Positions 6,170 to 37,727 of a stretch of DNA of 64,000 nucleotides are shown here, piece after piece. A model generated the notes under the pieces. That model was not told the origin of the DNA. It saw only the letters and a program-made list of their open reading frames with translations, and searched no databases. How positions within the stretch are numbered: position 1 is the first letter of the stretch; each line of letters begins with the position of its first letter. The position numbers were made by a program, and so were the translations under genes. This stretch comes from an uncultured Pelagibacteraceae bacterium (GTDB lineage: Bacteria > Pseudomonadota > Alphaproteobacteria > Pelagibacterales > Pelagibacteraceae). The stretch covers positions 62,001 to 126,000 of the forward strand of contig CACAKN010000001.1 of NCBI GenBank assembly GCA_902533075.1, in the 5' to 3' direction.

Positions 6170-6200
6170 TTTGCACTTGTGCAAATAAAGTTCCACTTAT
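6170..6200. promoter_or_regulatory. Composite regulatory site before the replication genes
   Basis: TTTGCACTTGTGCAAA (6170-6185), a 16-base inverted repeat with a TT centre, directly joins AATAAAGTTCCACTTAT (6184-6200). The first motif recurs at the prophage left end and at 38369. The second recurs at 12964 and 37712. The site lies just after the RNA polymerase stop and 36 bases before the SSB gene. I infer an operator overlapping or abutting a phage promoter. Confidence 0.5.
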
Positions 6201-6236
6201 GGCTACATAAACGAAGCCAAATTATAGGAGTATAAT

Positions 6237-6824
6237 ATGCAACCAACAACAAACATAAGTGTTGTCGGAGAAGCTATTTATCCTCACCTAAATAAACCTG
6301 ATGTTCGTTTTAACGAAGCAGGTGAATATAAGGTGACCTTGAAGGTCGCTAAATCAGACGCAACTGAAATGTTGAAGTTATATACTTCAGCTTTAGATGA
6401 CAGTCTTAAATTAGCTGAACAAAACCATAAAGGTAAAGGGATTAAAAAAGCACCGAAACCTTATACAGAAGAAGGCGATTACGTTTTCTTCAAATTCAAA
6501 ATGAAAGCAACTGGGGTAAACCAGAAGACTAAAGAAAAGTTTTCACAAAAACCCCAATTGTTTGACGCAAAGAAAAACCCAATCCCATTGAGTACTATTA
6601 TTTGGGGTGGTTCTAAAATGCGTGTCGCTTATAATTTAGTATCTTACTATACGCCAATGTTAGGCGCAGGTATTACTGCTAGATTAAAAGCAGTACAAGT
6701 TATCGAACTTGTTGAGGGAAAAGATAGCAACCTTTTTGAAAAAGAAGATGGCTATGAAGCAACACCCAAACCAGAAGTTATCTCAAATGAAACGTCAGAA
6801 GTTCAAGAGAGTAAAGACTTCTAG
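6237..6824 (+). CDS. Single-stranded DNA-binding protein, T7 gp2.5-like
   Basis: The 195-residue product has the gp2.5-type OB-fold pattern: an N-terminal ISVVGEAIYPHLNKPD segment, a central VFFKFKMKA strand, IIWGGSKMRVAYNLVSYYTP and LKAVQVIELVEG. It ends in an acidic tail finishing KDF; in T7 gp2.5 an acidic tail with terminal Phe contacts DNA polymerase and helicase. It would coat single-stranded DNA in phage replication. A Shine-Dalgarno sequence (ATAGGAG) precedes the ATG. The endonuclease gene starts within its last 40 bases. Confidence 0.85.
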   Translation: MQPTTNISVVGEAIYPHLNKPDVRFNEAGEYKVTLKVAKSDATEMLKLYTSALDDSLKLAEQNHKGKGIKKAPKPYTEEGDYVFFKFKMKATGVNQKTKEKFSQKPQLFDAKKNPIPLSTIIWGGSKMRVAYNLVSYYTPMLGAGITARLKAVQVIELVEGKDSNLFEKEDGYEATPKPEVISNETSEVQESKDF

Positions 6825-7218
6825 TGGTGTTGTCCTAAAATCAGGTTTGGAAGAAGAAGTCTTTAATTATCTAACTAAGCAAAAGATTAATTTTACTTAC
6901 GAAGGAATGAAGATTACTTACTTCCAACCTGAAATTAAGAAAACATATACACCTGATTTCCCAATAAAGAATTTTTTTATTATAGAAACTAAAGGTGCTT
7001 TTAATTCTGCAGATAGAAAAAAGATGAAGACTATTAAATTGCAGAACCCAGAATTAGATATTCGATTTATTTTTTCAAACTCAAAAACTAAAATAGGTAA
7101 GAAGTCCAAAACTACTTATGGCAAGTGGTGTGAATTATTTGGATTTCGCTATCACTGTATTCAATCTACAAAACAAACCTTTCCACAAGATTGGTTAATA
7201 GAAATTAAAGGAAAATAA
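6787..7218 (+). CDS. Endonuclease I / Holliday junction resolvase, T7 gp3-like
   Basis: From the ATG at 6787 the product has 143 residues (T7 gp3 has 149). It shows FRSGLE-like KSGLEEEVFNYL, then YTPDFPI...FIIETKG, the catalytic PD-(D/E)XK core, and NPELDIRFIFSNSKTKIGKK, closely following gp3. The frame is open further upstream, but earlier starts would lie deep in the SSB gene and have no gp3 counterpart. It would cut branched DNA and degrade host DNA. It overlaps SSB by 38 bases and is one base from the amidase gene. Confidence 0.85.
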   Translation: MKRQKFKRVKTSSGVVLKSGLEEEVFNYLTKQKINFTYEGMKITYFQPEIKKTYTPDFPIKNFFIIETKGAFNSADRKKMKTIKLQNPELDIRFIFSNSKTKIGKKSKTTYGKWCELFGFRYHCIQSTKQTFPQDWLIEIKGK

Positions 7219-7219
7219 A

Positions 7220-7720
7220 ATGGCAAGACCAGAAACTAAATATATAGTTATCCATTGTTCTCAAACGAGACCAAGTCAGGATATAGGTGCTAAAGATATA
7301 GACAGATGGCATAGAGAAAGAGGTTGGCTTAAAATTGGTTATGGAAAAGTAATCAGAAGAAATGGTGAAGTTGAACAAGGAAGGGAAGACAATGCTATTC
7401 AAGCTCACGTCAAAGGATATAATCACTGCAGTTATGGCTTATGTCTTGTTGGTGGTGCTTTAGAAGAAGATTGGAAAAAACCAGAAGATAATTTTACTGC
7501 TGAACAATGGGAAGCATTAAAGAAAACTTTAGAAGAATTATTATTAAAATACCCAGACGCACAAATAGTCGGTCATTATATGTTGGACGAAGCAAAGACT
7601 TGTCCAAACTTTAACGTAAGAGAATATTTACTTAACGAAGACGTAAAGGGTTATAAGTTCCAAGATGGCTTGACTGATGAAGCTGATTTACAGGAGATGG
7701 AACTTGAAGACCAATCCTGA
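7220..7720 (+). CDS. N-acetylmuramoyl-L-alanine amidase, T7 lysozyme (gp3.5)-like
   Basis: The 166-residue product matches T7 lysozyme along its length: YIVIHCSQTRPSQDIG with the first zinc His, GWLKIGYGKVIRRNGEVEQG with the conserved Tyr, GYNHCSYGLCLVGG, and VGHYMLDEAKTCPNF with the second His, the catalytic Lys and the zinc Cys. It would cleave the peptidoglycan amide bond at lysis. In T7 the same protein binds and inhibits the phage RNA polymerase; whether that holds here depends on the split polymerase. The C-terminal end overlaps the primase gene. Confidence 0.92.
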   Translation: MARPETKYIVIHCSQTRPSQDIGAKDIDRWHRERGWLKIGYGKVIRRNGEVEQGREDNAIQAHVKGYNHCSYGLCLVGGALEEDWKKPEDNFTAEQWEALKKTLEELLLKYPDAQIVGHYMLDEAKTCPNFNVREYLLNEDVKGYKFQDGLTDEADLQEMELEDQS

Positions 7721-9287
7721 AGAAAAGTTTCTTCATCACGCACCTTGTGAAAATTGTGGTAGCCGAGACAATCTCGGAGTTTACGAGAACCATACTTATT
7801 GTTTCGGTTGCCACGATTATCAAAAAACAACTGGTGTTCTACCAGAACAAATTCAAACAAATATTAATACACTTATGATAAATGGAAATTACAATAGATT
7901 AGATAAACGAAATATAGACGAGGAAACTTGTAAAGTATTTGATTATCAGCAAGGCGAATATGATGGAAGACCAGTTCAAATCGCTAATTACTATGACAAG
8001 CATTATAACAAGGTAGCGCAAAAGCTACGATTTCAAGATAAAACTTTTAAGTGGCTTGGTGATACTGATAAAATTACTTTATTCGGTCAGCAAAACTGGC
8101 GTGATGGTGGAAGAACAATAGTTTTAACAGAAGGCGAATTAGATTGTCTTAGTGTATCAAAAGTAAATTCAAATAAATATCCTGTTTGTTCTATACCTTC
8201 AGGAACTGCGTCAGCTAAAAAATATATAAAACAAGAATTAGAATGGTTATCTAAATTTGAAAAGATAATCCTGATGTTTGACACTGATGAAGCAGGAATG
8301 AAAGCTAGTGTTGAATGTGCAAATATTTTACCAGTAAAAAAATGTTTCATTGCTAAACTTCAAGGTAAAGACGCAAGTGAATTATTACAAAAAGGTAAAG
8401 GTAATAAAATTATAGACGCAATCTTTGAAGCTAAACATTACACACCACAAGGTATTATTGAAGGTAATGATACAAAAGATTTATTATTAAAAGATGATTA
8501 TGTTGAAAGTGTTCCATATGTATTCGATGGACTAAACAAAAAACTATCAGGTATCAGACCTAAAGAATTAGTTTTATTATGTGCAGGTTCAGGAACTGGT
8601 AAGTCACAAGTTTGTAGAGAACTAGCTTTTGATTTAATTAATAAAAATAATAAAGTTGGATATATTGCTTTAGAAGAAAGCGTAAAGAGAAGTGTAAGAG
8701 GTTTAGTATCTCTTGCAGTAAACCAACCAATACATATACCAGAAGTTAGAAAAAAGATTTCAGATAAAGATTTAATTTCAGCGTGGGAAAAAATAAAAGA
8801 CAAGGTATGCTTTTATGACCACTTTGGAAGTTCAGACAGTGATGACCTATTAAATAGAATTAGATTTATGGTTCAAGGTCTCAACTGTAAATACATTTTC
8901 TTAGACCATATCTCCATTGTTATATCAGGAATTTCTGAGGGTGATGAGAGACGTAATATCGACAACTTAATGACTAACCTTAGAAAGTTAGTTGAAGAAG
9001 TTAATTGTGGAATGTTTGTTGTTTCACACTTGAAAAGAGTGGACAGTAAAACAGGACACGAAGAAGGTATACAAACGTCACTTTCACACCTCAGGGGTTC
9101 TCATTCACTTGCACAATTATCAGACGCAGTGATTGGTTTTGAAAGAGACCAACAATCGGAAACAGAAAACAATATAATGACTGTAAGAGTTTTAAAAAAT
9201 AGATTTACTGGTGACACTGGTGTTGCTTGTGATTTAATTTGGAACAAAGATACAGGTCGTTTGGTTGAAGGCAACTTCGATGAATGA
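7677..9287 (+). CDS. DNA primase-helicase, T7 gp4-like
   Basis: The product (536 aa from ATG 7677) starts with a zinc-binding domain, CENCGS...YCFGC (Cys 24, 27, 42, 45). It continues with a TOPRIM primase domain (TEGELDCLSV, then MFDTDEAGMKA) and a RecA-like hexameric helicase with Walker A GSGTGKSQ near residue 300 and FLDHISIV. It unwinds and primes DNA at the phage fork. A TTG at 7704 is preceded by AGGAG at a 7-base spacing and may be the true start (527 aa), whereas ATG 7677 has no clear ribosome binding site. Confidence 0.92.
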   Translation: MKLIYRRWNLKTNPEEKFLHHAPCENCGSRDNLGVYENHTYCFGCHDYQKTTGVLPEQIQTNINTLMINGNYNRLDKRNIDEETCKVFDYQQGEYDGRPVQIANYYDKHYNKVAQKLRFQDKTFKWLGDTDKITLFGQQNWRDGGRTIVLTEGELDCLSVSKVNSNKYPVCSIPSGTASAKKYIKQELEWLSKFEKIILMFDTDEAGMKASVECANILPVKKCFIAKLQGKDASELLQKGKGNKIIDAIFEAKHYTPQGIIEGNDTKDLLLKDDYVESVPYVFDGLNKKLSGIRPKELVLLCAGSGTGKSQVCRELAFDLINKNNKVGYIALEESVKRSVRGLVSLAVNQPIHIPEVRKKISDKDLISAWEKIKDKVCFYDHFGSSDSDDLLNRIRFMVQGLNCKYIFLDHISIVISGISEGDERRNIDNLMTNLRKLVEEVNCGMFVVSHLKRVDSKTGHEEGIQTSLSHLRGSHSLAQLSDAVIGFERDQQSETENNIMTVRVLKNRFTGDTGVACDLIWNKDTGRLVEGNFDE

Positions 9288-9549
9288 AGCAACCTTAACT
9301 AAATTTATTTTAAGTTATTTAGTAGATAAACCTGATTACGTAGAGTTAGATACTGAACAACAACAATTAATTTTCCAAACTTGTCGTACAATTATGATGG
9401 CTATTTATAACGCTATTAAATACGACAATGTCCACCCAGTAATTATGTGTGGTGACGCTGAAGCAAGAGCAATAATTAAAAAAGCAATTCAAGGCGTTGG
9501 AGAAATATTACCAAGTACAGAAAAAATTACAGTCCACTTAATACATTAA
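9280..9549 (+). CDS. Small hypothetical phage protein between helicase and polymerase
   Basis: I take the ATG at 9280, which overlaps the helicase stop, rather than an earlier codon inside the helicase gene. The 89-residue product starts MNEATLTKFILSYLVDKPDY and has a helical middle (QQLIFQTCRTIMMAIYNAI). No transmembrane segment or known motif is visible. It lies directly before DNA polymerase with no gap, so it is probably a replication accessory or host takeover protein. No family recognised. Confidence 0.7.
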   Translation: MNEATLTKFILSYLVDKPDYVELDTEQQQLIFQTCRTIMMAIYNAIKYDNVHPVIMCGDAEARAIIKKAIQGVGEILPSTEKITVHLIH

Positions 9550-11313
9550 ATGAAGCTAATAATTGACCTAGAAACTAATGGGTTTCTAGACAAATTAGAT
9601 GTCATTCACTGCATTGTCTGCAAGGATATAGAAACCAATAAGGTATATTCATATAATCCTGACAATCTGAATGATGGTCTAGAGTTGCTAAAGAAAGCAA
9701 CATTATTAATAGGTCATAATATACAAGGTTTTGATTTACCTGCGCTTGATAAAATATTTGGATTTAAATATTCAGGAGAAATTTTAGATACTCTTTTATG
9801 TTCAAGATTAATTTGGACAAATAGACAGGAATTAGATTTTAAAGTCAAAAACCTACCACCAAAACTAATCGGTAGACACTCACTTGAAAGTTGGGGCTAC
9901 CGATTGGGATTACGTAAAGGTGATTATCAAGAACATTCAACATTTGATGTTTGGTCTCTTGAAATGCAAGACTATTGTGAAAGAGACGTAGAAGTCACAC
10001 ACAAATTATACGACCTTATAATTAAAACAAACTATTCTAAAGAAGCTATCCTCTTAGAACATCAATTCGCACACTGGATTAGGCAACAAGAAATGTTCGG
10101 TGTGTGTTTTGATGAGAGTTCTGCTGAGAACCTTTTATCTATCCTAACAAAACGGAGACTAGAGTTAGCTGACCAGTTGGCTCTAGTATTTCCGTCTTGG
10201 GAAGAAGTACAAGGTTATAAAACTTATAAAAGAGATAATAAGAAAAGAGGTATCAGGGCAGGAGTGCCAGTTAAAATTACAAAAACTATCACGTTCAATC
10301 CTAACTCTAGAGACCATATTGCTTCTAGATTAAAAACTTTAGGGTGGAAACCAAAAGACTTTACTGCAGGTGGTAAACCTGAAGTAAGTGAAAAAATATT
10401 AAAATCATTAAATTATCCTGAAGCGAAACTTATTGCAGAATATTTGATGATACAGAAAAGACTTGGACAACTTTCAGAAGGTGACCAAGCATATTTAAAA
10501 CAAATTAAAAAAGGAAAAATTTATGGACAAGTTATTACGAATGGGGCAGTCACTGGCAGGTGTACTCACCACTCACCAAACCTTGCACAAGTTTGTTCAA
10601 GCGATTTACCATATGGTAAAGAACTTCGTTCCTTATTTACTGCTTCTACCGATATGGTTATGTGTGGTGTCGATTTTAGTGGTTTGGAGTTGCGTGTGCT
10701 TTCTCATTACTTGGGTGTATACGACAATGGATATTTTCAAAAACAATTGCTTACAGATGATATACATTCCCAAAATCAAAAATCTCTCGGATTATCCTCA
10801 CGTTCTAAAGCTAAAACTTTTATATATGCTTACATTTATGGTGGGGGAAATAAAAAACTCAGTGAGATACTTAACGTCTCTTATGACGAAGCCAAAAGAA
10901 TAAGAGATACTTTTGAGAAAAAATTACCTGCACTTAAAACTTTAAAAGACGCAGTTGTTTCTAAATATAGAAGAACTGGTTTTGTTAATGGTTTAGATAA
11001 AAGAAAATTAATGTGTAGAGCCGAACATAGTTCTTTAAATACATTAATACAGTCTGCAGGTAGCTTATTAGTAAAACAAGGAACTATATTATTAAATAAA
11101 GAACTAGAAAAAGCAGGATTTGTGTGGGGTAAAGATTATGCGCAGGTCTTGCATATACACGATGAAATACAGTTTGAAGTACATAAAGATAAACTAGAAA
11201 ACTTCAAAACTATAACAAAATCAATATTCAAAAAAACACAAGAGCATTTTAACTTTAGATGTCCATTAGACGGAGAGATTAAGGTTGGACAGAATTGGAG
11301 TGATACACACTAA
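9550..11313 (+). CDS. DNA polymerase, family A, T7 gp5-like with 3'-5' exonuclease
   Basis: The 587-residue product begins with the exonuclease: LIIDLETNG (Exo I, DxE), LIGHNIQGFDLPAL (Exo II) and YCERDVEVTHKLY (Exo III). The polymerase follows with motif A DFSGLELRVLSHY, motif B SRSKAKTFIYAYIYGG and motif C HIHDEIQFEV. T7 gp5 has 704 residues; the shortfall of about 117 is compatible with loss of the thioredoxin-binding insertion, which I infer but cannot align here. It replicates the phage genome with the helicase and SSB encoded just upstream. Confidence 0.93.
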   Translation: MKLIIDLETNGFLDKLDVIHCIVCKDIETNKVYSYNPDNLNDGLELLKKATLLIGHNIQGFDLPALDKIFGFKYSGEILDTLLCSRLIWTNRQELDFKVKNLPPKLIGRHSLESWGYRLGLRKGDYQEHSTFDVWSLEMQDYCERDVEVTHKLYDLIIKTNYSKEAILLEHQFAHWIRQQEMFGVCFDESSAENLLSILTKRRLELADQLALVFPSWEEVQGYKTYKRDNKKRGIRAGVPVKITKTITFNPNSRDHIASRLKTLGWKPKDFTAGGKPEVSEKILKSLNYPEAKLIAEYLMIQKRLGQLSEGDQAYLKQIKKGKIYGQVITNGAVTGRCTHHSPNLAQVCSSDLPYGKELRSLFTASTDMVMCGVDFSGLELRVLSHYLGVYDNGYFQKQLLTDDIHSQNQKSLGLSSRSKAKTFIYAYIYGGGNKKLSEILNVSYDEAKRIRDTFEKKLPALKTLKDAVVSKYRRTGFVNGLDKRKLMCRAEHSSLNTLIQSAGSLLVKQGTILLNKELEKAGFVWGKDYAQVLHIHDEIQFEVHKDKLENFKTITKSIFKKTQEHFNFRCPLDGEIKVGQNWSDTH

Positions 11314-11671
11314 AGCAAGACCTCATTTTGACTTGGATTTAAAATTCGGACAAGAGAAAGAAAACGAACTTCAAGAAATATTTAATAATAAATTAGTAGA
11401 AGTTAAGACAGATAGGGTCTGTCAAAAGACTGGAAATGTCTTTGTTGAAATAGAAGACAACGGAAAACCTTCAGGAATAATGAACACTAAAGCAATCTAT
11501 TTTGCTTTTTGTTTATGGAAAGAGGAACGTAAAGACCAAGTTTGGGTTCTCATTCCAACAAAAATTCTAAAAAAATTAATGAAGAAATTTCCAATTAAAT
11601 CAGGTGGTGATAACTGGGAAAGTAAAGGTCACTGCGTTCCAAAGGAAGCATTACTACAATATGAAATATAA
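11285..11671 (+). CDS. Putative PD-(D/E)XK-like nuclease or hypothetical replication-region protein
   Basis: The frame opens at a TTG (11285) inside the end of the polymerase gene; GTG 11300 is an alternative start and neither has a convincing ribosome site. The product (up to 128 aa) contains FDLDLKFGQEKENEL, KLVEVKTDR and VFVEIEDNGKPSGI, where the E-V-K and later Glu resemble a PD-(D/E)XK nuclease core. Similar short proteins are found beside DNA polymerase in marine podoviruses. The nuclease reading is inference from this motif only. Confidence 0.6.
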   Translation: MDRIGVIHTKARPHFDLDLKFGQEKENELQEIFNNKLVEVKTDRVCQKTGNVFVEIEDNGKPSGIMNTKAIYFAFCLWKEERKDQVWVLIPTKILKKLMKKFPIKSGGDNWESKGHCVPKEALLQYEI

Positions 11672-11921
11672 AAAATATAAAATTGTATTTCTAGACCCAA
11701 CTGCAAATAGTGGTTGGCAATCAGAAAAAGAACTCAAAGAATTTACACCTGAAGAATGTGTAATAGAAGCATACGTTTATTCTAAAGACAAAAAGACAGT
11801 CAAAACTTTTGCTTCGTATTCAATAAACAAGGACGATAAGGAATTTACGTTTGCAGATACTAACGTACTTCCACGTGCCACAATTAAATCAATGAGGAGA
11901 ATATATGAAAAACTTAAATGA
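11661..11921 (+). CDS. Hypothetical phage protein (86 aa)
   Basis: I use the ATG at 11661, which overlaps the end of the preceding ORF; the frame is open further upstream but within that ORF. The product starts MKYKKYKIVFLDPTANSGWQ and is a mixed alpha/beta small soluble protein with no recognised motif and no membrane segment. It is packed between the putative nuclease and the exonuclease genes with short overlaps on both sides, which supports it being translated in the replication operon. Confidence 0.65.
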   Translation: MKYKKYKIVFLDPTANSGWQSEKELKEFTPEECVIEAYVYSKDKKTVKTFASYSINKDDKEFTFADTNVLPRATIKSMRRIYEKLK

Positions 11922-12720
11922 GTTTCACGCTAACAAAAAGAAAACAATGTTAGTTGATGGAGACTTACTTGCTTATAAGATTACTTCTGCTTTAGAAGAA
12001 ACTATTGAGTGGGAAGACGATGTATGGACTTTACATTGTGACTTAGACAAATGTAAGCAATTTTGGAAACAAGCAATTGCTTATTATATGAGACTTACAA
12101 ATTCTGCTATGTGCATTATTGCATTTTCTGATGTTTCTAATTACAGAAAGCAATTAGATTTAGATTATAAGTCTTTTAGAAAAGGTATTAGAAAACCAAT
12201 TACATACAAACCACTAAGACTTTGGATAGAACAAACTCACAAAACATTAAGTTATCCTTTCTTAGAAGGTGATGACACTTTAGGATTACTAGCAACTGGT
12301 GACTACAAAAATAATTGTGTCATTGTTTCTGGTGATAAAGATATGAGAACAATTCCTGCGTGGCATTGTTTTATCATAGACGACAGTATCGAATTTGTAG
12401 ATATGCAAAAAGCTGATTTAAACTTTTGTACTCAGGTTTTGACTGGCGATAAATCAGATGGTTATATTGGGTGTAAAGGTGTCGGTGCAGTCAAGGCAAG
12501 TAGAATACTTGATGGTAAGAAAAATATATCTTTAATGTGGGAAGCAGTACTTCAGGAGTATCAAAGAAATGGATACACAATTGAAGACGCTTATCACCAA
12601 AGTAGACTAGCAAGAATACTTAGAGAAGGTGAATACGATTACAAAAAACAAGAACCTAAATTATGGAGTTATAAATATGAACACTACAGACATTTTGAAG
12701 AAAACCGAGAAGCTAGTTAA
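11905..12720 (+). CDS. 5'-3' exonuclease, T7 gp6-like
   Basis: The 271-residue product belongs to the FEN/5'-3' exonuclease family: MLVDGDLLAYK near the start, FLEGDDTLGLLAT and VIVSGDKDMRTIP in the middle, and TGDKSDGYIGCKGVGAVKA, the D-x-S/D-D and helix-hairpin-helix segment. The acidic residues bind the two metals. In T7 the enzyme degrades host DNA and removes RNA primers. An AGGAG sequence precedes the ATG. Its end overlaps the DUF6378 gene by 44 bases. Confidence 0.9.
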   Translation: MKNLNEFHANKKKTMLVDGDLLAYKITSALEETIEWEDDVWTLHCDLDKCKQFWKQAIAYYMRLTNSAMCIIAFSDVSNYRKQLDLDYKSFRKGIRKPITYKPLRLWIEQTHKTLSYPFLEGDDTLGLLATGDYKNNCVIVSGDKDMRTIPAWHCFIIDDSIEFVDMQKADLNFCTQVLTGDKSDGYIGCKGVGAVKASRILDGKKNISLMWEAVLQEYQRNGYTIEDAYHQSRLARILREGEYDYKKQEPKLWSYKYEHYRHFEENREAS

Positions 12721-13024
12721 TGACAGTCGTGCAAAGACACACGGTGATAAAGTAGCTAATCACGAAAACATTGCTAGATTGTGGTCTTCGTATTTACAGA
12801 ACAAAACAAAACTTATGATAGTTTTGACACCTGAAGACGTTGCTCAACTAATGACTTTGCTAAAAATAGCAAGGACACAAGCAGGTGAACATAACATTGA
12901 TGACTATATAGATGGTTGTGGTTATCAAGCTATTGCAGGACATATAGCAAGTAAAAGGTCTGAAATAAGTTCCACTTTAGGAGTATCTAATGCAAAAAAA
13001 GATAAAAACCCCACTAATAAGTGA
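12677..13024 (+). CDS. DUF6378-type phage protein
   Basis: From the ATG at 12677 the product has 115 residues. The pattern SRAKTHGD...ENIARLWSSYL, LTPEDVAQLMTLLKIARTQ and DDYIDGCGYQAIAGH is that of DUF6378, a small helical family common in tailed phages whose function is unknown. An all-alpha MazG-like fold is possible. Earlier in-frame codons lie inside the exonuclease gene. A copy of the AATAAGTTCCACTT motif lies in its last codons at 12964-12977, possibly as a promoter for the next gene. Confidence 0.75.
   Translation: MNTTDILKKTEKLVNDSRAKTHGDKVANHENIARLWSSYLQNKTKLMIVLTPEDVAQLMTLLKIARTQAGEHNIDDYIDGCGYQAIAGHIASKRSEISSTLGVSNAKKDKNPTNK
12964..12977 (+). promoter_or_regulatory. Possible phage promoter motif before the late genes
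   Basis: AATAAGTTCCACTT is identical to the core at 37712 and differs by one inserted A from that at 6184. It is 13 bases upstream of the start at 12990 and just ahead of the head gene block. It lies in the coding end of the DUF6378 gene, so chance cannot be excluded. Confidence 0.35.
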
Positions 13025-13169
13025 AGAACTTATTAATTATTTAGAACAATTGTTTCCTGACAAATGTGCTGATTTAAAAGATACAGAAAAAGAAGTCTTT
13101 TATAAATCAGGACAAAGGTCAGTCGTAAATCATTTAATCGAACAATTTAAAATACAAGGAGAAAACTAA
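12990..13169 (+). CDS. Small hypothetical phage protein (59 aa)
   Basis: An ATG preceded by TTAGGAG at 12978-12984 opens a 59-residue frame overlapping the end of the DUF6378 gene. The product begins MQKKIKTPLISEELINYLEQ and ends VNHLIEQFKIQGEN, and looks soluble and helical. Its size, spacing and position before the head genes resemble the small gp6.5/6.7 class of T7 proteins, but I see no sequence similarity to them. Confidence 0.65.
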   Translation: MQKKIKTPLISEELINYLEQLFPDKCADLKDTEKEVFYKSGQRSVVNHLIEQFKIQGEN

Positions 13170-13170
13170 T

Positions 13171-13410
13171 ATGTGTGTAAGTGTAAAAGCCCCTGCGCCA
13201 CCACCAGCACCAGAACCAATTCCTGCTACACCACCAAGTGTATCAAGCGCAACAACTAAACAAGTTGCACCTACTTCTGCAGACGCTGAAGGTAGAGACA
13301 CAACTGTTGCTTCAAGAGTAGCAAGAAGAAGGGTCGGTAGAGGAACTTTGAGAATACCTCTAGCAACTTCTGGTCTTACAAAGAGTGGTCTTAATATACC
13401 AAGTGCATAA
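13171..13410 (+). CDS. Small tail/virion assembly protein, T7 gp7.3-like by position
   Basis: The 79-residue product has a proline-rich N-terminus (APAPPPAPEPIPATPP), a middle with GRDTTVASRVARRRVG, and a C-terminus ending SGLTKSGLNIPSA. T7 gp7.3, also directly before the portal gene, likewise ends in a basic Ser/Gly segment with GGGINI. The similarity of the end and the location suggest a tail assembly or host-range protein. The evidence is weak outside the C-terminus. ACAAGGAG precedes its ATG. Confidence 0.6.
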   Translation: MCVSVKAPAPPPAPEPIPATPPSVSSATTKQVAPTSADAEGRDTTVASRVARRRVGRGTLRIPLATSGLTKSGLNIPSA

Positions 13411-15011: not shown

Positions 15012-15014
15012 TAA

Positions 15015-16483: not shown

Positions 16484-16484
16484 T

Positions 16485-18226: not shown

Positions 18227-18236
18227 TAATAAATAA

Positions 18237-27745: not shown

Positions 27746-27754
27746 GAATAATAT

Positions 27755-29515: not shown

Positions 29516-29529
29516 GGAGAAATATAATT

Positions 29530-30348: not shown

Positions 30349-30358
30349 GGAGAAAAAT

Positions 30359-30646
30359 ATGGCAAAAATAGAAAAACCAATACTTGAAACTGAAGAAGAA
30401 TGTCTTGCAGGATTAGATGAAAGACAAAAACTAATTGTCAATGCACAAACTGGAGAACAAAAATATGTTCCTTTAGATGATGATGATAAAGCGTTTTTTA
30501 CAAAAAGAGCAAAGACAAGAGAAGCTAGTCATAACGCTTTGTTTGATGGTATTAATGCTAGAGAAGATTTAAAAGAAAGTGCAAGAGCAAAATTAGTAGC
30601 AGGTGAAAAACTTACCGAAGAAGAAGCTAAATTAATAGTATTATAA
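30359..30646 (+). CDS. Small acidic protein of the fibre module
   Basis: The 95-residue product starts MAKIEKPILETEEECLAGLD and has charged helical segments up to GEKLTEEEAKLIVL. No transmembrane segment is present. It lies between the fibre gene and the oxygenase gene, so a chaperone or accessory role in fibre assembly is possible, but I recognise no family. AAGGAG precedes the ATG. Confidence 0.7.
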   Translation: MAKIEKPILETEEECLAGLDERQKLIVNAQTGEQKYVPLDDDDKAFFTKRAKTREASHNALFDGINAREDLKESARAKLVAGEKLTEEEAKLIVL

Positions 30647-30650
30647 TACT

Positions 30651-31271
30651 GTGAATAAGCGTGAGTATAAAACTATCACGTTAGGACAAAAGATTTTAAA
30701 ATTTGATGTTCCTAAAGATATAATAGATACAATCAATAATGTTTACGAAAATAATAATTTATTAGAACATAATAATTATTTAGCAGGTAAAATAGTAAAT
30801 CAACATAAAATTACTGAATATTTACCAGATACAGTTAAAGATTATTTTACAGGTTGTTTTCAATTATATTTATTAGAAAATAGTTTTGTTCAATTACCTT
30901 TTAAAGTTAAATTGTTAGACGCTTGGATTAACGAAATGAAAGAGAATGAATATAATCCAATGCACACTCATAGAGGTCTTAGCCATATTGGATTGTCTTC
31001 TGTATTATGTTTAAAAGTTCCTAGTACTTATGGAAACGAATATTCAACAGAACATAATCCTTGTAATGGCGTATTAGATATTATCGGTAATAACGGTGGT
31101 ATGTTTTCTAACAATCAATTTAGACAAAGATTGTCAGTAGGAGATTTATTTGTATTTCCTTATGACATAAATCACGGAGTTTATCCATTCAATAATACTA
31201 AAGAAACTAGACGCACAATGTCTTTCAATTGTGATTTACCAATAGAATTTAAAAATAAATCAAAGGAGTAA
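30651..31271 (+). CDS. Putative 2OG-Fe(II) oxygenase of the fibre module
   Basis: The start is a GTG at 30651. The 206-residue product has LLDAWINEMKENEYNPMHTH, with the H-x-H iron-binding pair. It then shows LSSVLCLKVP, GDLFVFPYDINHGVYPF with the distal His, and ETRRTMSFN with the Arg that binds 2-oxoglutarate. This is the pattern of phage-borne Oxy_5 type enzymes. Such proteins hydroxylate proteins or other substrates; the substrate here is unknown. Its place among fibre genes suggests modification of a virion protein or of the host surface. Confidence 0.8.
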   Translation: MNKREYKTITLGQKILKFDVPKDIIDTINNVYENNNLLEHNNYLAGKIVNQHKITEYLPDTVKDYFTGCFQLYLLENSFVQLPFKVKLLDAWINEMKENEYNPMHTHRGLSHIGLSSVLCLKVPSTYGNEYSTEHNPCNGVLDIIGNNGGMFSNNQFRQRLSVGDLFVFPYDINHGVYPFNNTKETRRTMSFNCDLPIEFKNKSKE

Positions 31272-31277
31272 TAATAA

Positions 31278-32597
31278 ATGTCAAGAAATAGAAATCTTGC
31301 CGATTTAATAAACGGTATAGACGCAAGTAAAATCACTTCAGGCACTTTTGCAGACGCAAGACTAAGTCAATCAAGTGTTCAACAATATGCTAGTACCTTT
31401 GACGATAATAAAATTGTCAATGATATTTCTACATTGGGGTTGAGAGTTCATACACAAGAAAACCTTAACGCTTCAAATACTAACTCGGCTTCCTTTGATG
31501 TATTTCAAGATAGTTCTGGGATTACAAATTTGACTAATTGTGAAAGAAATCAAGGAGAATTTCTGTCTTCTGTTGTTAGTGCAGGATTTGCTATTGATAA
31601 TGCAGGAACATTATTAACAAACTTACATAATGTTCATAATTTCGATAACAATAAAACAGACGATTATCAAGGTAATATGGTTTTAAGTGACAGTGATGTT
31701 GCACCTACTTTTAGTTCATCAATTAAGAAATTTGGAACACACTCAGTTTATTCTGCACAAGACAATCAAGGTTATTCTATGAATTACAATAGCACTGGTC
31801 ATTCTAACTTTGCTTCAAATGAAAGTACATCAATGTCTTGTTGGATTTATCAAACATCAGATAATGCACAATGGAATATGATTTATGACGGAATTTCATC
31901 AACTGGTAATCACGGATTTATTTTTGCAGGTAGGTATCAAAACCAAGATGATACTGGAATTTATGATAATAATGGTTGGGCAAATGGGGGTGGTACTATT
32001 GTCTTAAATCAATGGCACCATATGGTCTTTATGATTTCTACTTCTAAAAAAGAAATGTATTTTGATGGAGTAAGACAAATAAATGCTAGTGGTTCTTTTT
32101 CCTGGCACGGTAGTGATACATCTCATAGACTTTTTAAAAGATATGACAATGGTTCTAATCTTCATTTTAATGGTTATTGCGACCAACTTTGTTTTTGGAA
32201 AAATAAAATATTAAGCACAACTGAAATTGCAGATTTATATAATAGTGGAAATGGTAATGAATTTACAAGTGGAGTAGAAAATGCAACTGGCTCGTTTGAG
32301 AATAATCCAATAACGGCTTCATCAACAAACAAAATGGGTGCAGTTATAACTTATCAAGACAACGCAGGAACTAACGCATTAAATACAGATATTGTTTTAA
32401 AATTATCAGCAGACAATGGTTCAAACTATTCGACTGCAACTCTTACGGCTTTACCTGATTTTGCTACTGGAATTAAAATGGCAAAAGTCAATGACCTTTC
32501 AGTGACTGCAGGTACACAATTAAAATATAAAATAGAATTTGCTAATCAATCAAATAGTAAAAACGCAAGAATTAGAGGAGTTAGTTTACAATACTAA
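31278..32597 (+). CDS. Tail fibre-like protein with LamG/concanavalin A-like domain
   Basis: The 439-residue product starts with NRNLADLINGIDASKITSGT then FADARLS, a short fibre-attachment motif common at the start of marine phage fibres. Residues around 150-330 make a LamG-type jelly roll: HSVYSAQDNQGYSMNY, SMSCWIYQTSD, WHHMVFMISTSKKEMYFDGV and LHFNGYCDQLCFWKNKILST. The C-terminus has a DNGSNYSTATLTAL strand. It is likely a third receptor-binding protein, recognising a sugar. Confidence 0.82.
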   Translation: MSRNRNLADLINGIDASKITSGTFADARLSQSSVQQYASTFDDNKIVNDISTLGLRVHTQENLNASNTNSASFDVFQDSSGITNLTNCERNQGEFLSSVVSAGFAIDNAGTLLTNLHNVHNFDNNKTDDYQGNMVLSDSDVAPTFSSSIKKFGTHSVYSAQDNQGYSMNYNSTGHSNFASNESTSMSCWIYQTSDNAQWNMIYDGISSTGNHGFIFAGRYQNQDDTGIYDNNGWANGGGTIVLNQWHHMVFMISTSKKEMYFDGVRQINASGSFSWHGSDTSHRLFKRYDNGSNLHFNGYCDQLCFWKNKILSTTEIADLYNSGNGNEFTSGVENATGSFENNPITASSTNKMGAVITYQDNAGTNALNTDIVLKLSADNGSNYSTATLTALPDFATGIKMAKVNDLSVTAGTQLKYKIEFANQSNSKNARIRGVSLQY

Positions 32598-32836
32598 TGC
32601 CTAGAAAAAAGATTACTGCTAAAAACTTTGTTGAACAAGCAACAGGAGTAAGACTTTCTGCACACGAAAGAATTTGTGCTGAGAGAATGAAAACTTTGAA
32701 TGATAGTATTAATGAATTAAAGAGAGAAGTTAAATCATTAAGACAAGATGTTTCTAAAGGCAAAGGTGCAGTAGCAGTTCTAGTATTTATTGGAACTCTT
32801 GTAGCTTCAATAATCGGATTTTTAAATTTTAAATGA
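32597..32836 (+). CDS. Putative holin with coiled-coil N-terminus and C-terminal membrane helix
   Basis: The 79-residue product has a charged helical first half (ERMKTLNDSINELKREVKSL) and one transmembrane helix (AVAVLVFIGTLVASIIGFLN) with a short tail. This layout, coiled coil then one C-terminal membrane segment, is like XhlA-type lysis proteins and other phage small membrane proteins. It heads a row of four small membrane or exported genes before terminase, where T7 has its lysis genes 17.5 and 18.5. The stop overlaps the next gene. Confidence 0.6.
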   Translation: MPRKKITAKNFVEQATGVRLSAHERICAERMKTLNDSINELKREVKSLRQDVSKGKGAVAVLVFIGTLVASIIGFLNFK

Positions 32837-33063
32837 AATATGTACTAATCTTGTACGTATGTAGTTTCATAAATCAGGCAAACCCATTCTGTAATGAAAG
32901 TCATATAGTTCCTTTAGAATTTGAAACTTACGAAGAATGTATACTTCAAGGTTATAAATCTTCTCATAATACATTGAAAAAATTGTATGGAGAAAGAATT
33001 GAAGAAGAAAAACTAGCAATCAAATTTTATTGTCAAAAGGTAAAAGTAGGTGAAAATATCTGA
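32833..33063 (+). CDS. Small exported protein in lysis cluster
   Basis: The 76-residue product begins with a hydrophobic segment (YVLILYVCSFINQ) that may be a signal peptide, then contains FETYEECILQGYKSSHNTLK and AIKFYCQKVKVG. Cysteines near C38 and C70 and the end resemble the shorter protein at 33400 (KCIEKK...YICSKVKAE), so the two may be relatives. Such E-C...F-x-C-Q-x small exported proteins are common in marine phages. No lipobox is evident. Function unknown. Confidence 0.6.
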   Translation: MKYVLILYVCSFINQANPFCNESHIVPLEFETYEECILQGYKSSHNTLKKLYGERIEEEKLAIKFYCQKVKVGENI

Positions 33064-33400
33064 TAACACTTCAATAGCAATGCCTATGAGAAATCTCATA
33101 AGTATAGTTGTTGCAGTTGCAGTAGGAGTTTGGGCGTACTTTGGAATAGTAGAAAGAATAAATACTTTAGAAACTTCAAAACAATTGATGGAAGCTGACT
33201 TATTAAAGAAAGCAGAACAAACACCTAAAAATTTAGAAATGCTAATGTTGATTGAAATGAACTCGAAATTATTAGAGAAACATCAAACTCAATTAGACGA
33301 AAATATTCATACTAAGGTTTTATTAACTGAAGCAAATAAGAAGATAGATAAATTACAAGTAGACGTAGAAAAATTAATTAGAAAAAATGGTAATCACTAA
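33050..33400 (+). CDS. Membrane-anchored coiled-coil protein, possible inner spanin
   Basis: The start is GTG 33050, overlapping the preceding gene. The 116-residue product has an N-terminal membrane helix (MRNLISIVVAVAVGVWAYFG) followed by a long predicted coiled coil to the C-terminus. This is the layout of i-spanins such as T7 gp18.5, and the position in front of terminase is the same. No matching lipoprotein o-spanin was recognised; the exported products at 32833 and 33400 are possible partners. Assignment is by architecture only. Confidence 0.5.
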   Translation: MKISDNTSIAMPMRNLISIVVAVAVGVWAYFGIVERINTLETSKQLMEADLLKKAEQTPKNLEMLMLIEMNSKLLEKHQTQLDENIHTKVLLTEANKKIDKLQVDVEKLIRKNGNH

Positions 33401-33600
33401 TGGTAGAAATAATGGCTTTATTAATGTTTGTAGGCACTGAACAAAAACTTACAGAAATGACATATATGCCTTCAGTTCATAAATGTATCGAAAAAAAGCG
33501 TATTGCTACCAGAAATAGTAATGCTCTTTATATATGTTCAAAAGTAAAAGCAGAATTATCAGAAGATATGAAAATTATAAGAATAGAGAGAAATCAATGA
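33400..33600 (+). CDS. Small hydrophobic-start protein in lysis cluster
   Basis: The 66-residue product starts MVEIMALLMFVGTEQKLTEM and contains HKCIEKKRIATRNSNALYIC then SKVKAELSED. It looks like a shortened relative of the exported protein at 32833, with two cysteines spaced about 20 residues apart. The first 12 residues are hydrophobic but too short for a clear membrane helix. It overlaps its neighbours by one to four bases. Confidence 0.55.
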   Translation: MVEIMALLMFVGTEQKLTEMTYMPSVHKCIEKKRIATRNSNALYICSKVKAELSEDMKIIRIERNQ

Positions 33601-33818
33601 GTGATAGTAAATTAAAAGAATTACACGGAGTTTTAGCACAAGAACTATTAAAAAGAGTAAAAGACCCAAAAGCAAAATCTGCAGATTTAAATGTAGCTAG
33701 ACAATTTTTAAGAGACAATGGAATAGACGCAGTTCCAACAGAAGATAATCCACTAGGAAAACTATTAGAAGAACTACCATTCGATGAAAAACGAAAAAAT
33801 CCTGTCAAAAATAACTGA
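33597..33818 (+). CDS. Terminase small subunit-like protein, T7 gp18 position
   Basis: I use the ATG at 33597, which gives 73 residues; the upstream frame lies within the preceding gene. The product starts MSDSKLKELHGVLAQELLKR and contains ADLNVARQFLRDNGIDAVPT, a helical pattern found in small terminase subunits of marine podoviruses (terminase genes with S/A-x-L-N-V-A-R-x-F-L). It would recognise phage DNA ends. It overlaps the large subunit gene by 35 bases. Confidence 0.75.
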   Translation: MSDSKLKELHGVLAQELLKRVKDPKAKSADLNVARQFLRDNGIDAVPTEDNPLGKLLEELPFDEKRKNPVKNN

Positions 33819-35454
33819 CTTTAGGAATTTTCTATACATCACTTGGAAGCATTTAAATTTACCTCAACCTACTAAAGTTCAATACGATATAGCTGACTAT
33901 ATTGCTAATGGAGACAGTAGAATAATTATTAGTGCTTTTAGAGGTGTAGGAAAGAGTTGGATAACTGCAAGTTATGTTTTATGGCGTATCTTACTTAATC
34001 CAAATATTAATATACTTGTTGTATCGGCTTCAAAGAATAGAGCCGATGACTTTAGTACTTTCTGTTTAAGATTACTTCACGAAATGCCATTGCTTCAACA
34101 TCTATATCCTAAAGACGACCAAAGACAGTCAAAGATTAGTTTTGATGTAAATACGGCTTCTGCTTCACAACAACCAACAGTAAAGTCATTAGGTATTACT
34201 TCGCAGATTACAGGTTCACGTGCAGACTTAGTTGTTGCTGATGACGTAGAAACTTCAGGAAATACTCAAACTCAGTTTATGAGAGACAAGTTATCTGAAG
34301 CTATTAAAGAATTTGAAGCAGTAATTAAACCTGACACTTCTAGAATTATATACTTAGGTACACCACAAACAGAACAAAGTATTTATAACAAGTTGCAAGA
34401 GAGAGGTTATAAAATACGTTATTGGACTGCTAGATACCCTAGTGAGAAACAAATAAAGTCTTATGGTTCTAATCTTGCGCCTATAATTAATAATACTTGG
34501 AATATAGATTTAATTGGTAAACCTACAGACCCATCAAGATTTGATGAAAAAGATTTATTAGAAAGAGAAGCTAGTTATGGAAGACTAGGTTTTAATATGC
34601 AGTATCAGCTAGATACTACGTTAAGTGACCTAAACAAGTTTCCATTAAAACTATCAGATTTATCAGTAATGAATTTAAATCCTGAGAACGCACCAGAAAA
34701 AGTTATTTGGGCTAGTTCTCCTGAATTACAACATAACGATTTACCTAACGTAGGACTACAAGGAGACGCTTATTATAGACCTATGGAAGTACAAGGTCAG
34801 TGGTTGCCTTATATATCTACAGTAATGGCAATTGACCCTTCAGGTAAAGGTTCTGATGAAACGGCTTATTGTGTCACTAAATTTTTAAATGGTAATATTT
34901 ATTTAGTAGATATTGGTGGTTTCAATAGTGGTTATTCAGAACATACATTATCTAAATTAGTAGAAGTAGCTAAGAAGAATAAAGTTAATAAGATTTTAAT
35001 AGAAGAAAACTTTGGTCAAGGTATGTTTGAGGCATTATTAAAACCTTATTTAATTAAAGAATATCCTTGTACTACAGAAATGGTTAGACAGACTTCTAAT
35101 AAACATAGAAGGATATTGGATACATTAGAACCTCTAATATCTCAGCATAGAATTATTGTAGATAAAACAGTAATCAAGAAAGACTATGAAGGTACTAATA
35201 TGTTGTATCCTCAGGAAAGCGCATTGAAGTATCAGCTTTTCTACCAAATAAGTAGATTACAAAAAGAAATACATTCATTGCCACACGATGACAGAATTGA
35301 TTGTCTTCAGGTTGCTTGTCATCATTGGGTTCAGCATTTAGCTAAAGACCAAGAACTTTCATATAAACAAAGAAAAGAAGACTTACTTAATGCTGAAATA
35401 GAGAAATATTTTGGAGATAATAAAACAGAAAACAGTTGGATTAAAATAATATGA
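33784..35454 (+). CDS. Terminase large subunit, T7 gp19-like
   Basis: The 556-residue product has Walker A in ISAFRGVGKSWITA near residue 55, the adenine-side VLVVSASKNRADDFSTF region, Walker B LVVADDVET near residue 155 and the coupling motif IIYLGTPQ. A C-terminal RNase H-like nuclease follows (AIDPSGKGSDETAY, ILIEENFGQGMFEALL and HDDRIDCLQVA). It cuts and packages the genome into heads. Length is close to T7 gp19 (586). Confidence 0.95.
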   Translation: MKNEKILSKITDFRNFLYITWKHLNLPQPTKVQYDIADYIANGDSRIIISAFRGVGKSWITASYVLWRILLNPNINILVVSASKNRADDFSTFCLRLLHEMPLLQHLYPKDDQRQSKISFDVNTASASQQPTVKSLGITSQITGSRADLVVADDVETSGNTQTQFMRDKLSEAIKEFEAVIKPDTSRIIYLGTPQTEQSIYNKLQERGYKIRYWTARYPSEKQIKSYGSNLAPIINNTWNIDLIGKPTDPSRFDEKDLLEREASYGRLGFNMQYQLDTTLSDLNKFPLKLSDLSVMNLNPENAPEKVIWASSPELQHNDLPNVGLQGDAYYRPMEVQGQWLPYISTVMAIDPSGKGSDETAYCVTKFLNGNIYLVDIGGFNSGYSEHTLSKLVEVAKKNKVNKILIEENFGQGMFEALLKPYLIKEYPCTTEMVRQTSNKHRRILDTLEPLISQHRIIVDKTVIKKDYEGTNMLYPQESALKYQLFYQISRLQKEIHSLPHDDRIDCLQVACHHWVQHLAKDQELSYKQRKEDLLNAEIEKYFGDNKTENSWIKII

Positions 35455-35624
35455 GTACAGTAAATAAATCAGGTAATTATACCAAACCTACTTTGAGAAA
35501 GCGTATATTCAGTAGAATAATGAATAGCAATTCTTATGGTACACCTAGTGGTAAATGGAGTGCTAGAAAAGCACAAGCACTAGCGAAAGCATATAAAAAA
35601 GCAGGTGGTGGATATAAAAGCTAA
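35451..35624 (+). CDS. 57-aa protein with DUF5872-like KWSARKAQ motif
   Basis: The ATG overlaps the terminase stop (ATGA). The 57-residue product ends SYGTPSGKWSARKAQALAKA then YKKAGGGYKS, the G-K-W-S-A-R-K-A-Q-x-x-A-x-x-Y motif of DUF5872-like domains found in marine viruses. It is basic and probably binds nucleic acid. Start codon of the next gene overlaps its stop. No function is established. Confidence 0.65.
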   Translation: MSTVNKSGNYTKPTLRKRIFSRIMNSNSYGTPSGKWSARKAQALAKAYKKAGGGYKS

Positions 35625-35860
35625 TGTCACTTAAACAACCTCAAAAAGATTTGAAGAACTGGTCGGCTCAAAAATGGAGAACTAAATCAGGTAAAAAATC
35701 TAGTGTCACTGGTGAAAGGTATTTACCAGAAAGCGTAATAAACAGATTGTCCTCTAAAGAGTACGCAAGGACGACTGCAAAGAAAAGAAAAAACAGAACT
35801 AGAGCAAAGTATAGTAAGAAAATAGCTTCTATGGTTAGAAATGCTCTTAAAGTTGTTTGA
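35624..35860 (+). CDS. 78-aa basic protein with WRTKSGKKS motif
   Basis: The 78-residue product contains KDLKNWSAQKWRTKSGKKSS then ERYLPESVINRLSSKEYART and a very basic end. W-R-T-K-S-G-K-x-S and the R-Y-L-P pattern belong to the other half of the DUF5872-type sequence seen in the preceding gene, so the pair may be a split form of one longer protein. A DNA-binding role near packaging is possible. Ends the terminase operon. Confidence 0.65.
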   Translation: MSLKQPQKDLKNWSAQKWRTKSGKKSSVTGERYLPESVINRLSSKEYARTTAKKRKNRTRAKYSKKIASMVRNALKVV

Positions 35861-35897
35861 TTTTGATTTTTTAATTAAGTGCCACTATTAGGATACT

Positions 35898-35919
35898 ACT
35901 ATAGTTAAACTATAGTTAA
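35898..35919. repeat. Two tandem copies of ACTATAGTTAA
   Basis: ACTATAGTTAA is repeated exactly twice, one helical turn apart, and each copy contains the palindrome AACTATAGTT or part of it. It lies in the 126-base gap after the terminase operon, where T7-like phages carry the genome end or a promoter. The ACTATAG part recalls the T7 promoter core, but the rest does not match. Confidence 0.4.
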
Positions 35920-35986
35920 TCTTTATCCTTATATAAGTGCAACCAACAACATCTGACTATGAGTATATCTTATAGTAAATAAAGTT

Positions 35987-36250
35987 ATGAACCACAAAGA
36001 ACCAAAGGTAATCTATCTTAAAGCTCTTTTTTCAAAGAATAAAAGTAAAAAGAATGTAGAGAAAATAATAAAAGAATTTGTAGTACAAGCAGAATTTCCA
36101 AGAAAGAAACTTAAAGTTTCACCAGAAGTTAAATCTAAAATGGCTAGAGAGTTTATACTGAAGTACGCTAATGACTTTTTAGGTTATGCCGTAGAGTACT
36201 CAATGTTTGATAAGTTCTTTGATTTAAAAAGTTTTGACGAAAAAATCTGA
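35987..36250 (+). CDS. Hypothetical phage protein (87 aa)
   Basis: The 87-residue product starts MNHKEPKVIYLKALFSKNKS and has KIIKEFVVQAEFPRKKLKVS with a basic middle and a final FFDLKSFDEKI. It is soluble and helical with no recognised motif. It is separated from terminase by a 126-base gap and from the next gene by 254 bases, so it is probably an independent early gene. No good ribosome site is visible (weak AAAG). Confidence 0.6.
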   Translation: MNHKEPKVIYLKALFSKNKSKKNVEKIIKEFVVQAEFPRKKLKVSPEVKSKMAREFILKYANDFLGYAVEYSMFDKFFDLKSFDEKI

Positions 36251-36308
36251 CAAGTTCACGTATATACACAAAATTTTTTTTACCCCCTCGACCCTATAGC
36301 AAAAATAA

Positions 36309-36350
36309 ACAGGGGTACTACCCTGTATTGTATCCAATATACAATTTTTC
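36309..36350 (+). terminator. Double hairpin with T-run in early-region gap
   Basis: ACAGGG (36309-36314) pairs with CCCTGT (36321-36326) around a 6-base loop. Then ATTGTAT (36327-36333) pairs with ATACAAT (36339-36345), directly followed by TTTT. The second hairpin with the T run fits an intrinsic terminator for the 35987 gene. The rest of the 254-base gap (36251-36504) is T-rich with no gene; it contains TACGTTAGTCTT at 36379-36390, identical to part of the attR core region. Confidence 0.5.
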
Positions 36351-36504
36351 TGCAGGAAACCGAGTGATAGTTTTGATTTACGTTAGTCTTCTAGACTACC
36401 GATGGACTTTTTTGTAGATTTTTTCTTTCAAAAAATTATTTCATATTATCTCTCTCATTATCTGTTTTGAAACTTCAGAAACTTTGTGATACTTACAGTT
36501 CAGT

Positions 36505-37587
36505 ATGGTTAAGTTATTAAAAAAGAAAACATTAAAACAAAAGACTGAAGATAGACAAAAGGATTTAGAGAGAAGACTAGATATATTTCTTGGTAGACCT
36601 ACAGTTAAAATAGATAGCAGTGTAAAGCTAGAGTACCATACGAAACCATTGTCACTTAAAGAGACACACTGGATTGCTACCACTCAAAAGAGAGACAAGA
36701 TGTTTTACTTTGAAGGTAAACTATTGTCTGCAGAAAATGAACAAAGAGTTATCAATTACAAGAAGTCAAACAAGATATACAAGGCGTGGCTAAAGAAACA
36801 ACAAGACGCACTGGATAAATTAAAGAACGCAATCAAACCAAGAGCAATGTTTGAAATGGAACAAGCATACCAGAAACTTGGAGAGCAAATAAGACAACAG
36901 GGTAATCCATTTAATCTGTCAGGTCAGATGATACAGATGGGTAAAGTAAGTGATGAATTATATCCAATGGGTTTGCTTTCTCCGACACCAAGTAAGACTA
37001 AAGTAAAGCAACAGATAAATAGACTGAAGGCGCATTTACAAGGAGAAGATATATCAGTAGCTAATCACGGACTGAATAGTTTCTGCGACAGACACAAGAT
37101 TAAAGACCCAGTAGATATGGTGGTAAAGATGGCTAAGATGAAGAAGGAAGGAAAGCTATATGAAGACTACTTTACTATATCTTATCAGGACGCAGTAGCT
37201 ATAGCAGAAAGCGTTGGTATGCTTCATCAAGAATTACTGGAAAGTGTGATAGATTATATAGCCAAGAGAGCCAAGCATTATAAGACTAATAATAATATAA
37301 TGGCAGGAATTGCAGGTGAAACACTTGTAAACTTATGGCTTAAAGCAGTCGAAGATAAGAAGCCAATGAAACTACCAATGACAATGTTCTTTAATTCTAA
37401 AGCAAGAAAGCAATGGAGTAAACAATATAACTACGATTGGAAGGACTATAAAAGATTTCACGAGCAATTTAAGAAATGGATAAAAATATTTACTGCTAGA
37501 GCAAGAAAGAAAAGTGAAAATGTAGAAGGTGAGTTTGAAACTTATTTAGAATTTTTATCTCAAACAAATTCCAAAGGTTTAATTTAA
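36505..37587 (+). CDS. Hypothetical early phage protein (360 aa)
   Basis: The 360-residue product is basic, helix-rich and has no membrane segment. Distinct parts are KKKTLKQKTEDRQKDLERRL at the N-terminus and a central VANHGLNSFCDRHKIKDPVD. A C-terminal MAGIAGETLVNLWLKAVEDK is followed by RARKKSENVEGEFETYLEFL. I recognise no family. It is the largest unknown gene of the prophage, in the position where T7 encodes early host takeover proteins. It is followed by the paired inverted repeats at 37605-37653. No clear ribosome site precedes its ATG. Confidence 0.75.
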   Translation: MVKLLKKKTLKQKTEDRQKDLERRLDIFLGRPTVKIDSSVKLEYHTKPLSLKETHWIATTQKRDKMFYFEGKLLSAENEQRVINYKKSNKIYKAWLKKQQDALDKLKNAIKPRAMFEMEQAYQKLGEQIRQQGNPFNLSGQMIQMGKVSDELYPMGLLSPTPSKTKVKQQINRLKAHLQGEDISVANHGLNSFCDRHKIKDPVDMVVKMAKMKKEGKLYEDYFTISYQDAVAIAESVGMLHQELLESVIDYIAKRAKHYKTNNNIMAGIAGETLVNLWLKAVEDKKPMKLPMTMFFNSKARKQWSKQYNYDWKDYKRFHEQFKKWIKIFTARARKKSENVEGEFETYLEFLSQTNSKGLI

Positions 37588-37604
37588 GTTTCACGTAGAA
37601 CAAA

Positions 37605-37653
37605 ATCCGAAGTCAGTTCGGATAAAAAACAACAATCCGATTTGTGTTCGGAT
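37605..37653. promoter_or_regulatory. Paired inverted repeats ATCCGAA-N5-TTCGGAT
   Basis: The first repeat pairs ATCCGAA (37605-37611) with TTCGGAT (37617-37623). The second pairs ATCCGA (37635-37640) with TCGGAT (37648-37653). The centres are about 30 bases apart, close to three helical turns. They lie in the 245-base gap before the right-hand gene module and could be twin operator sites or an RNA hairpin pair; neither is followed by a T run. Confidence 0.45.
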
Positions 37654-37711
37654 AATGTTTTATAGGTGTTCTATTGAATAATAAAAATTTTATGATTAGT
37701 TCAACTGCAGG

Positions 37712-37727
37712 AATAAGTTCCACTTAT
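37712..37727 (+). promoter_or_regulatory. AATAAGTTCCACTTAT motif, candidate phage promoter or operator
   Basis: ATAAGT and ACTTAT form an inverted repeat around TCC (37713-37727). The same core occurs at 6184-6200 and 12964-12977. Here it is about 105 bases before the 37833 gene. A further perfect palindrome, ACTTGTTTACAAGT, lies at 37750-37763. Recurrence before separate gene blocks suggests a site read by a phage factor. Confidence 0.45.

Follow-up and report, generated by a model that had tools for sequence, protein, structure and literature searches.

Candidate T7-class promoters of a temperate SAR11 prophage with a two-gene RNA polymerase

The prophage and its two polymerase genes

The window, a stretch of 64,000 nucleotides from an uncultured Pelagibacteraceae genome, contains a temperate T7-like SAR11 prophage of the Stopavirus/Fussvirus group that extends from about 3362 to 40636 and is bounded by one truncated and one intact tRNA-Leu, both of which carry GTCTTAGGA (at 3362 and 40628). 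This sequence, at 3362-3370 and 40628-40636 in the anticodon region, is the likely attachment core, and the right-hand tRNA-Leu is the intact copy. The genes and sites discussed below are collected in Table 1. Judged by the polymerase, the closest isolates are HTVC041P, HTVC025P, Eyrgjafa, MedDCM S30-C28 and HTVC011P, at 63-72% identity, and several SAR11 single-cell genomes carry polymerase genes 99-100% identical to those of the prophage.

Table 1. Features of the prophage, in window coordinates
Feature	Position	Strand	Basis or remark
T7-like RNA polymerase, N-terminal part, 322 aa	3538..4506	+	phrog_414 and RPOL_N matches
T7-like RNA polymerase, catalytic part, 556 aa, MHYN start	4496..6166	+	RNA_pol match
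Palindrome TTTGCACTTGTGCAAA, candidate repressor operator	6170..6185	.	same arrangement in most relatives
Predicted promoter P1, AATAAAGTTCCACTTAT/GG	6184..6202	+	matrix score 28.8
Hairpin at 5' end of predicted P1 transcript (GGCT...AGCC)	6201..6218	+	ViennaRNA fold
SSB (gp2.5-like), first gene downstream of P1	6237..6824	+	phrog_112
Predicted promoter P2, AAATAAGTTCCACTTTA/GG	12963..12981	+	matrix score 26.6
Head-tail connector, block downstream of P2	13410..15011	+	phrog_449
Terminase large subunit, 5' of P3	33784..35454	+	phrog_38
Predicted promoter P3, AATTAAGTGCCACTATT/AGG	35873..35892	+	matrix score 26.6
Hairpin at 5' end of predicted P3 transcript	35890..35929	+	ViennaRNA fold
Third site of the preliminary description, GAATAAGTTCCACTTAT/TT; doubtful	37711..37729	+	score 13.2
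Winged-helix-like protein directly 5' of integrase; candidate lysogeny repressor	38860..39288	+	HTH_34, E 0.0018, below Pfam cut-off
Tyrosine integrase, adjoins right prophage end	39222..40562	+	PF00589, E 8.8e-23

The two polymerase genes (3538-6166) overlap, and the split falls near the end of the N-terminal domain. A preliminary description of this DNA had implied a broken polymerase, a notion that does not survive comparison with the relatives checked, all of which except HTVC011P have the enzyme divided between two coupled genes. The halves are separate genes in HTVC041P, HTVC025P, S30-C28, Eyrgjafa and KM23-C739, and fused in HTVC011P. In HTVC025P a gap of 500 bp that contains two small genes separates them, an arrangement that excludes a frameshift product and, together with conservation of the split, led us to drop the possibility of a pseudogene. 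The catalytic part begins with MHYN in every split case, and all residues aligned with T7 D537, R627, K631, Y639, H811 and D812 are present in it. Fragmentation of the polymerase in this phage group, HTVC011P excepted, was reported in 2019 (PMC6811365).

Promoter-like sites and their conservation

The preliminary description had also drawn attention to a motif recurring at three sites in one orientation, and its coordinates and sequences prove right to within a base: the window has exactly three copies of GTTCCACTT, at 6190, 12969 and 37717, each on the + strand. Repetition alone is not significant, as 11-mers with at least three copies are expected about 70 times in random prophage-like sequence, and the count in the window of motif copies allowing one mismatch is at chance level. 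The significance of the motif therefore comes from comparison with relatives rather than from counting repeats. A scoring matrix built from sites in other phages picks out four places in the prophage, namely P1, P2, P3 and the site at 37711 (Table 1), where shuffling leads one to expect 0.06 sites above a score of 16 and 0.20 above 13, and the best score in the host DNA of the window is 8.6. The family pattern WAAGTNCCMCTNNNRG has three matches in the 970-kb assembly, all on one strand and at window positions 6187, 12966 and 35876, that is, P1-P3; this is a consistency check, because the pattern was written with the family already in view. Both matrix and pattern were refined with the sites known, and a few of the loci used in building them recur in the tests.

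A more independent test for P2 and P3 is provided by loci fetched via other genes. P2 is found 5' of the connector in 62 of 77 loci of relatives and P3 is found 3' of the terminase in 59 of 72, with no site on the reverse strand in either case, and no above-threshold site occurs inside the connector gene of the relatives' loci, which served as a control. Almost every relative read has P1 3' of the RNA polymerase. From the polymerase stop to the SSB start, both length and sequence are divergent among HTVC041P, HTVC025P, S30-C28, Eyrgjafa, HTVC011P and viral contigs fetched by their polymerase, and within this divergent stretch an island, [A/G]GTNCC[A/C]C[T/C]-N3-[G/A][G/A], is kept. The few contigs of the L006 group have a different sequence after the polymerase, with no P1 site in the stretch read. 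The family consensus is AATTAAGT[G/T]CCACT-N3-[G/A]G, and across 62 distinct sites C-7 and C-5 are invariant, A-6 is present in 53 and T-4 in 56, while position +1 is always a purine (G in 47, A in 15). The sites thus far described occur in multiple copies, on a single strand, and 5' of the replication and virion blocks, as is characteristic of T7-class promoters.

P1 lies between the RNA polymerase genes and SSB, with a predicted +1 at 6201 (G), and is predicted to drive SSB and the replication block. P2, 5' of the head block, has a predicted +1 at 12980 (G) and shares sequence with the final ~20 codons of the gene before it; the GGAG at its +1 doubles as the ribosome site of the next gene, so that the predicted transcript (12980-12992) would open with ribosome-binding GGAG and have a leader of only ~10 bases. 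P3 (AATTAAGTGCCACTATTAGG) lies 3' of the terminase with a predicted +1 at 35890 (A). The corresponding starts are predicted at 6839, 13732 and 37566 in HTVC041P and at 6965, 13813, 36478 and 36527 in HTVC025P. In more distant relatives the P2 site (L210-L215, L220-L222, L230, L232) or the P3 site (L103, L104, L130-L132, L134, L135) is not recognisable, and these phages may use a variant motif. GGTGACACTTTAGG also has matches in relatives, within or close to the gene for the internal virion protein; these were discounted as coding sequence.

When P1 transcripts are folded from the predicted +1, 20 of 25 loci give a hairpin with +1 or +2 as the first base of its stem, and the stems vary in sequence, for example GGCTAC/GTAGC- and GACTAGA/TCTGGTC. 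In an unbiased search, the start of the strongest local hairpin is scattered between -25 and +1, falling within -3 to +1 in 12 of 23 leaders; because this outcome is diffuse, the leader hairpins count as support for the predicted starts and not as proof.

The site at 37711 stands apart. It contains a perfect 7-bp inverted repeat, AATAAGT-TCC-ACTTATT, and its core is right, but +1 and +2 are both T in place of a purine start. Only close relatives of this neighbourhood were found, and the motif drifts among them: position -12 is changed in three, and -6 in one of those (L085 being read on the other strand). Its membership in the conserved promoter set is doubtful. Thus, of the three sites that had been presented as one set, those at 6184 and 12963 hold up as conserved, 37711 scores near background, and P3 at 35873 had been overlooked. 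Upstream of the 37711 site, at 36505-37587, is a 360-aa gene that has no family match and for which one relative was found in viral contigs.

Could 37711 nevertheless function, if weakly, as a left-end promoter of the phage genome, corresponding to T7 phiOL? It has 14 bases in common with P2, a hairpin is possible just 3' of its predicted start, in MedDCM S30-C28 the interval from terminase to the early genes contains a strong site (at 33036 on the reverse complement), and HTVC019P carries a site at 336. Set against this are a score at which 0.20 sites are expected by chance, the T residues at the start, the altered -12 and -6, and the failure to find an equivalent in the more distant relatives L048 and L015, and we think such a role rather unlikely.

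Promoter, operator or other signal

The T7 promoters, which read TAATACGACTCACTATAGGG, share with the prophage set their length, a CACTATAGGG or CACTATTAGG core and a placement on the + strand only. Some relatives carry AATTAAGTGCCACTATAGGG, among them HTVC041P at 37549; this sequence agrees with T7 at 14 of 20 positions, including all 10 between -7 and +3 (shuffle p 7e-5). The genomic positions also correspond: T7 phi2.5 lies 5' of SSB, like P1; phi6.5 lies 3' of the exonuclease and 5' of the head block, like P2; and phiOR lies 3' of the terminase, like P3. The stretch from -7 to +3 of phi2.5 is CACTATTAGG, identical in P3 of the window, and both start on A. Differences are found at positions -11 to -8, which are GACT in T7 and GT[G/T]C in the prophage, in number, with 17 annotated promoters in T7 as against three strong sites, and in the phage itself, which unlike T7 is temperate and has a polymerase made of two polypeptides. 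RNA polymerase II of phage N4 is likewise a T7-like enzyme of two polypeptides, although N4 promoters and accessory factors differ.

A temperate T7-like phage of Pseudomonas, LUZ100, has had its promoters mapped experimentally by ONT-cappable-seq (PMC10134795), and its phi2/phi3, phi6 and phi8 occupy the same three places as P1, P2 and P3, being located 5' of SSB, 5' of the structural block and 3' of the terminase (PMC10134795). Several LUZ100 promoters open with TATGGA, and P1 has TATGG; the specificity bases differ from those of the prophage (ACCACACAG), and LUZ100 also has a promoter directly 5' of the polymerase gene, where none was found in the prophage. In the Pelagivirus HTVC019P, a candidate promoter, TAAAGTTACACTATTAG, lies between polymerase and SSB beside a similar palindrome, with A at -8 where the prophage has C; its polymerase is more distant, unsplit and has a different specificity loop. 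This phage carries what appears to be a sister promoter family, with sites at 336, 7343, 17070, 21413 and 31032, all on the + strand, where 0.58 would be expected. HTVC031P has a candidate promoter, TTAAAGTACCCATAGTAG, both 5' of the polymerase and 5' of SSB (2714 and 5225).

The specificity loop of the polymerase, YKKESKRVKT-MGDSIIKLS, is common to five phages of the group except at one variable position, and that of HTVC011P is close to it. In the Chosvirus KM23-C739 the loop differs and promoter sites of this kind are absent. Loop and motif are both conserved within the group and both different in HTVC019P, KM23-C739 and LUZ100, the loop alignment being gapped. The position aligned with T7 Q758, which, like other such T7 residues, we take to contact the promoter, is K in the prophage (-8 is C) and A in HTVC019P (-8 of the candidate promoter is A), a change that, so far as gapped alignments can be trusted, fits an altered promoter specificity.

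With high probability, the motif is the promoter that the T7-like RNA polymerase of the prophage itself recognises, and P1, P2 and P3 very probably belong to the T7 class and serve that enzyme. The preliminary description had suggested a promoter for a single-subunit phage RNA polymerase, and the suggestion is supported at 6184 and 12963, which are T7-like in sequence, at T7 positions, on one strand and with a purine at +1, in dozens of relatives. Its other suggestion, an operator, would make the motif a dyad (AAGT-NCC-ACTT) bound by a repressor and not a promoter. The motif does have an inverted symmetry, which at 37711 extends without a mismatch over 7 bp, and the prophage encodes an integrase and a winged-helix-like gene, but in the 62 distinct sites the left half of the motif is nearly frozen and the right half variable, the pairs -10/-6, -12/-4 and -13/-3 are broken in 9, 7 and 23 sites respectively, and no change at -10/-6, -11/-5 or -12/-4 has its counterpart in the other half. 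Since no matched changes maintain the dyad, this reading fails, and the symmetry around TCC on which it was built is, as judged from the aligned sites, incidental in the family. The single orientation, the purine start that follows and the T7 promoter positions are further points against an operator, as is a different palindrome beside P1 that resembles one; we consider the dyad operator very improbable.

A host-read signal, such as a sigma-70 promoter, might be entertained on the grounds that early genes of T7-like phages use host promoters. However, a scan of P1 and P2 revealed no sigma-70-like site (-35/-10 hexamers, 16-18 bp apart) on the + strand in the polymerase-SSB gap or at P2, and the family pattern is absent elsewhere in the host assembly, so that we regard this reading as almost certainly wrong. 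P2 might also be conserved solely because it encodes the C-terminal end of the preceding protein and supplies the following gene with its ribosome site; in most relatives checked, an open frame that reads S-x-T-L-G does run through the motif. This is very improbable, because P2 is noncoding in HTVC025P, where the upstream gene has already ended and the motif is still present, and because in the NCC codon the first base varies (T, A, G or C) while degenerate third positions are fixed. The kind of promoter is known from phages, since T7 has such signals at the same three genome positions; the P1-P3 set is new, with no published promoter set for this pelagiphage group found in the literature searched.

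A model of transcription and its control

With P1-P3 as promoters of the prophage polymerase, a course of transcription can be proposed in which recognition by that enzyme, the precise base of each start and the succession of gene expression are all deduced from sequence. First, the host polymerase would read the early genes, the lysogeny genes and both genes of the phage RNA polymerase. This phage enzyme would then bind an element reaching from -17 to about +3, composed of an AT-rich part (-17 to -13), the specificity bases GT[G/T]C (-11 to -8) and CACT (-7 to -4), and start rightward transcription on the purine at +1. P1 (6201) would serve the replication genes, P2 (12980) the head and tail genes, and P3 (35890) the right end of the phage genome, as does phiOR in T7.

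The palindrome TTTGCACTTGTGCAAA touches the upstream edge of P1 and is a better operator candidate than the motif. Copies similar to the P1-abutting palindrome TTTGCACNNGTGCAAA are found 5' of the polymerase genes (3392 and 3448) and in the early region (38370), and these are likely to be repressor operators. A possible protein partner is the winged-helix-like candidate lysogeny repressor of Table 1; its gene lies just 5' of the integrase gene, the place that MarR-like proteins have in LUZ100 (PMC10134795). Repression of P1 through the palindrome is our own inference. In its full form, which we put forward tentatively and would rate somewhat below an even chance, the operator TTTGCACNNGTGCAAA of a lysogeny regulator lies directly against a promoter of the T7 class whose polymerase is naturally in two parts, and the repressor would directly block the phage polymerase at P1 and act on the similar copies 5' of the polymerase genes. 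If true, ocean prophages would possess a switch for T7-type transcription in which promoter and operator are combined.

The promoter set yields predicted start points for lytic transcription in a group of temperate phages widespread in the ocean, and would provide a promoter-polymerase pair with a specificity of its own. It also suggests that the T7 promoter layout has been retained in a distant relative whose polymerase is divided. Finally, the repressor-like site beside P1 makes the lysis-lysogeny decision in SAR11 open to test.
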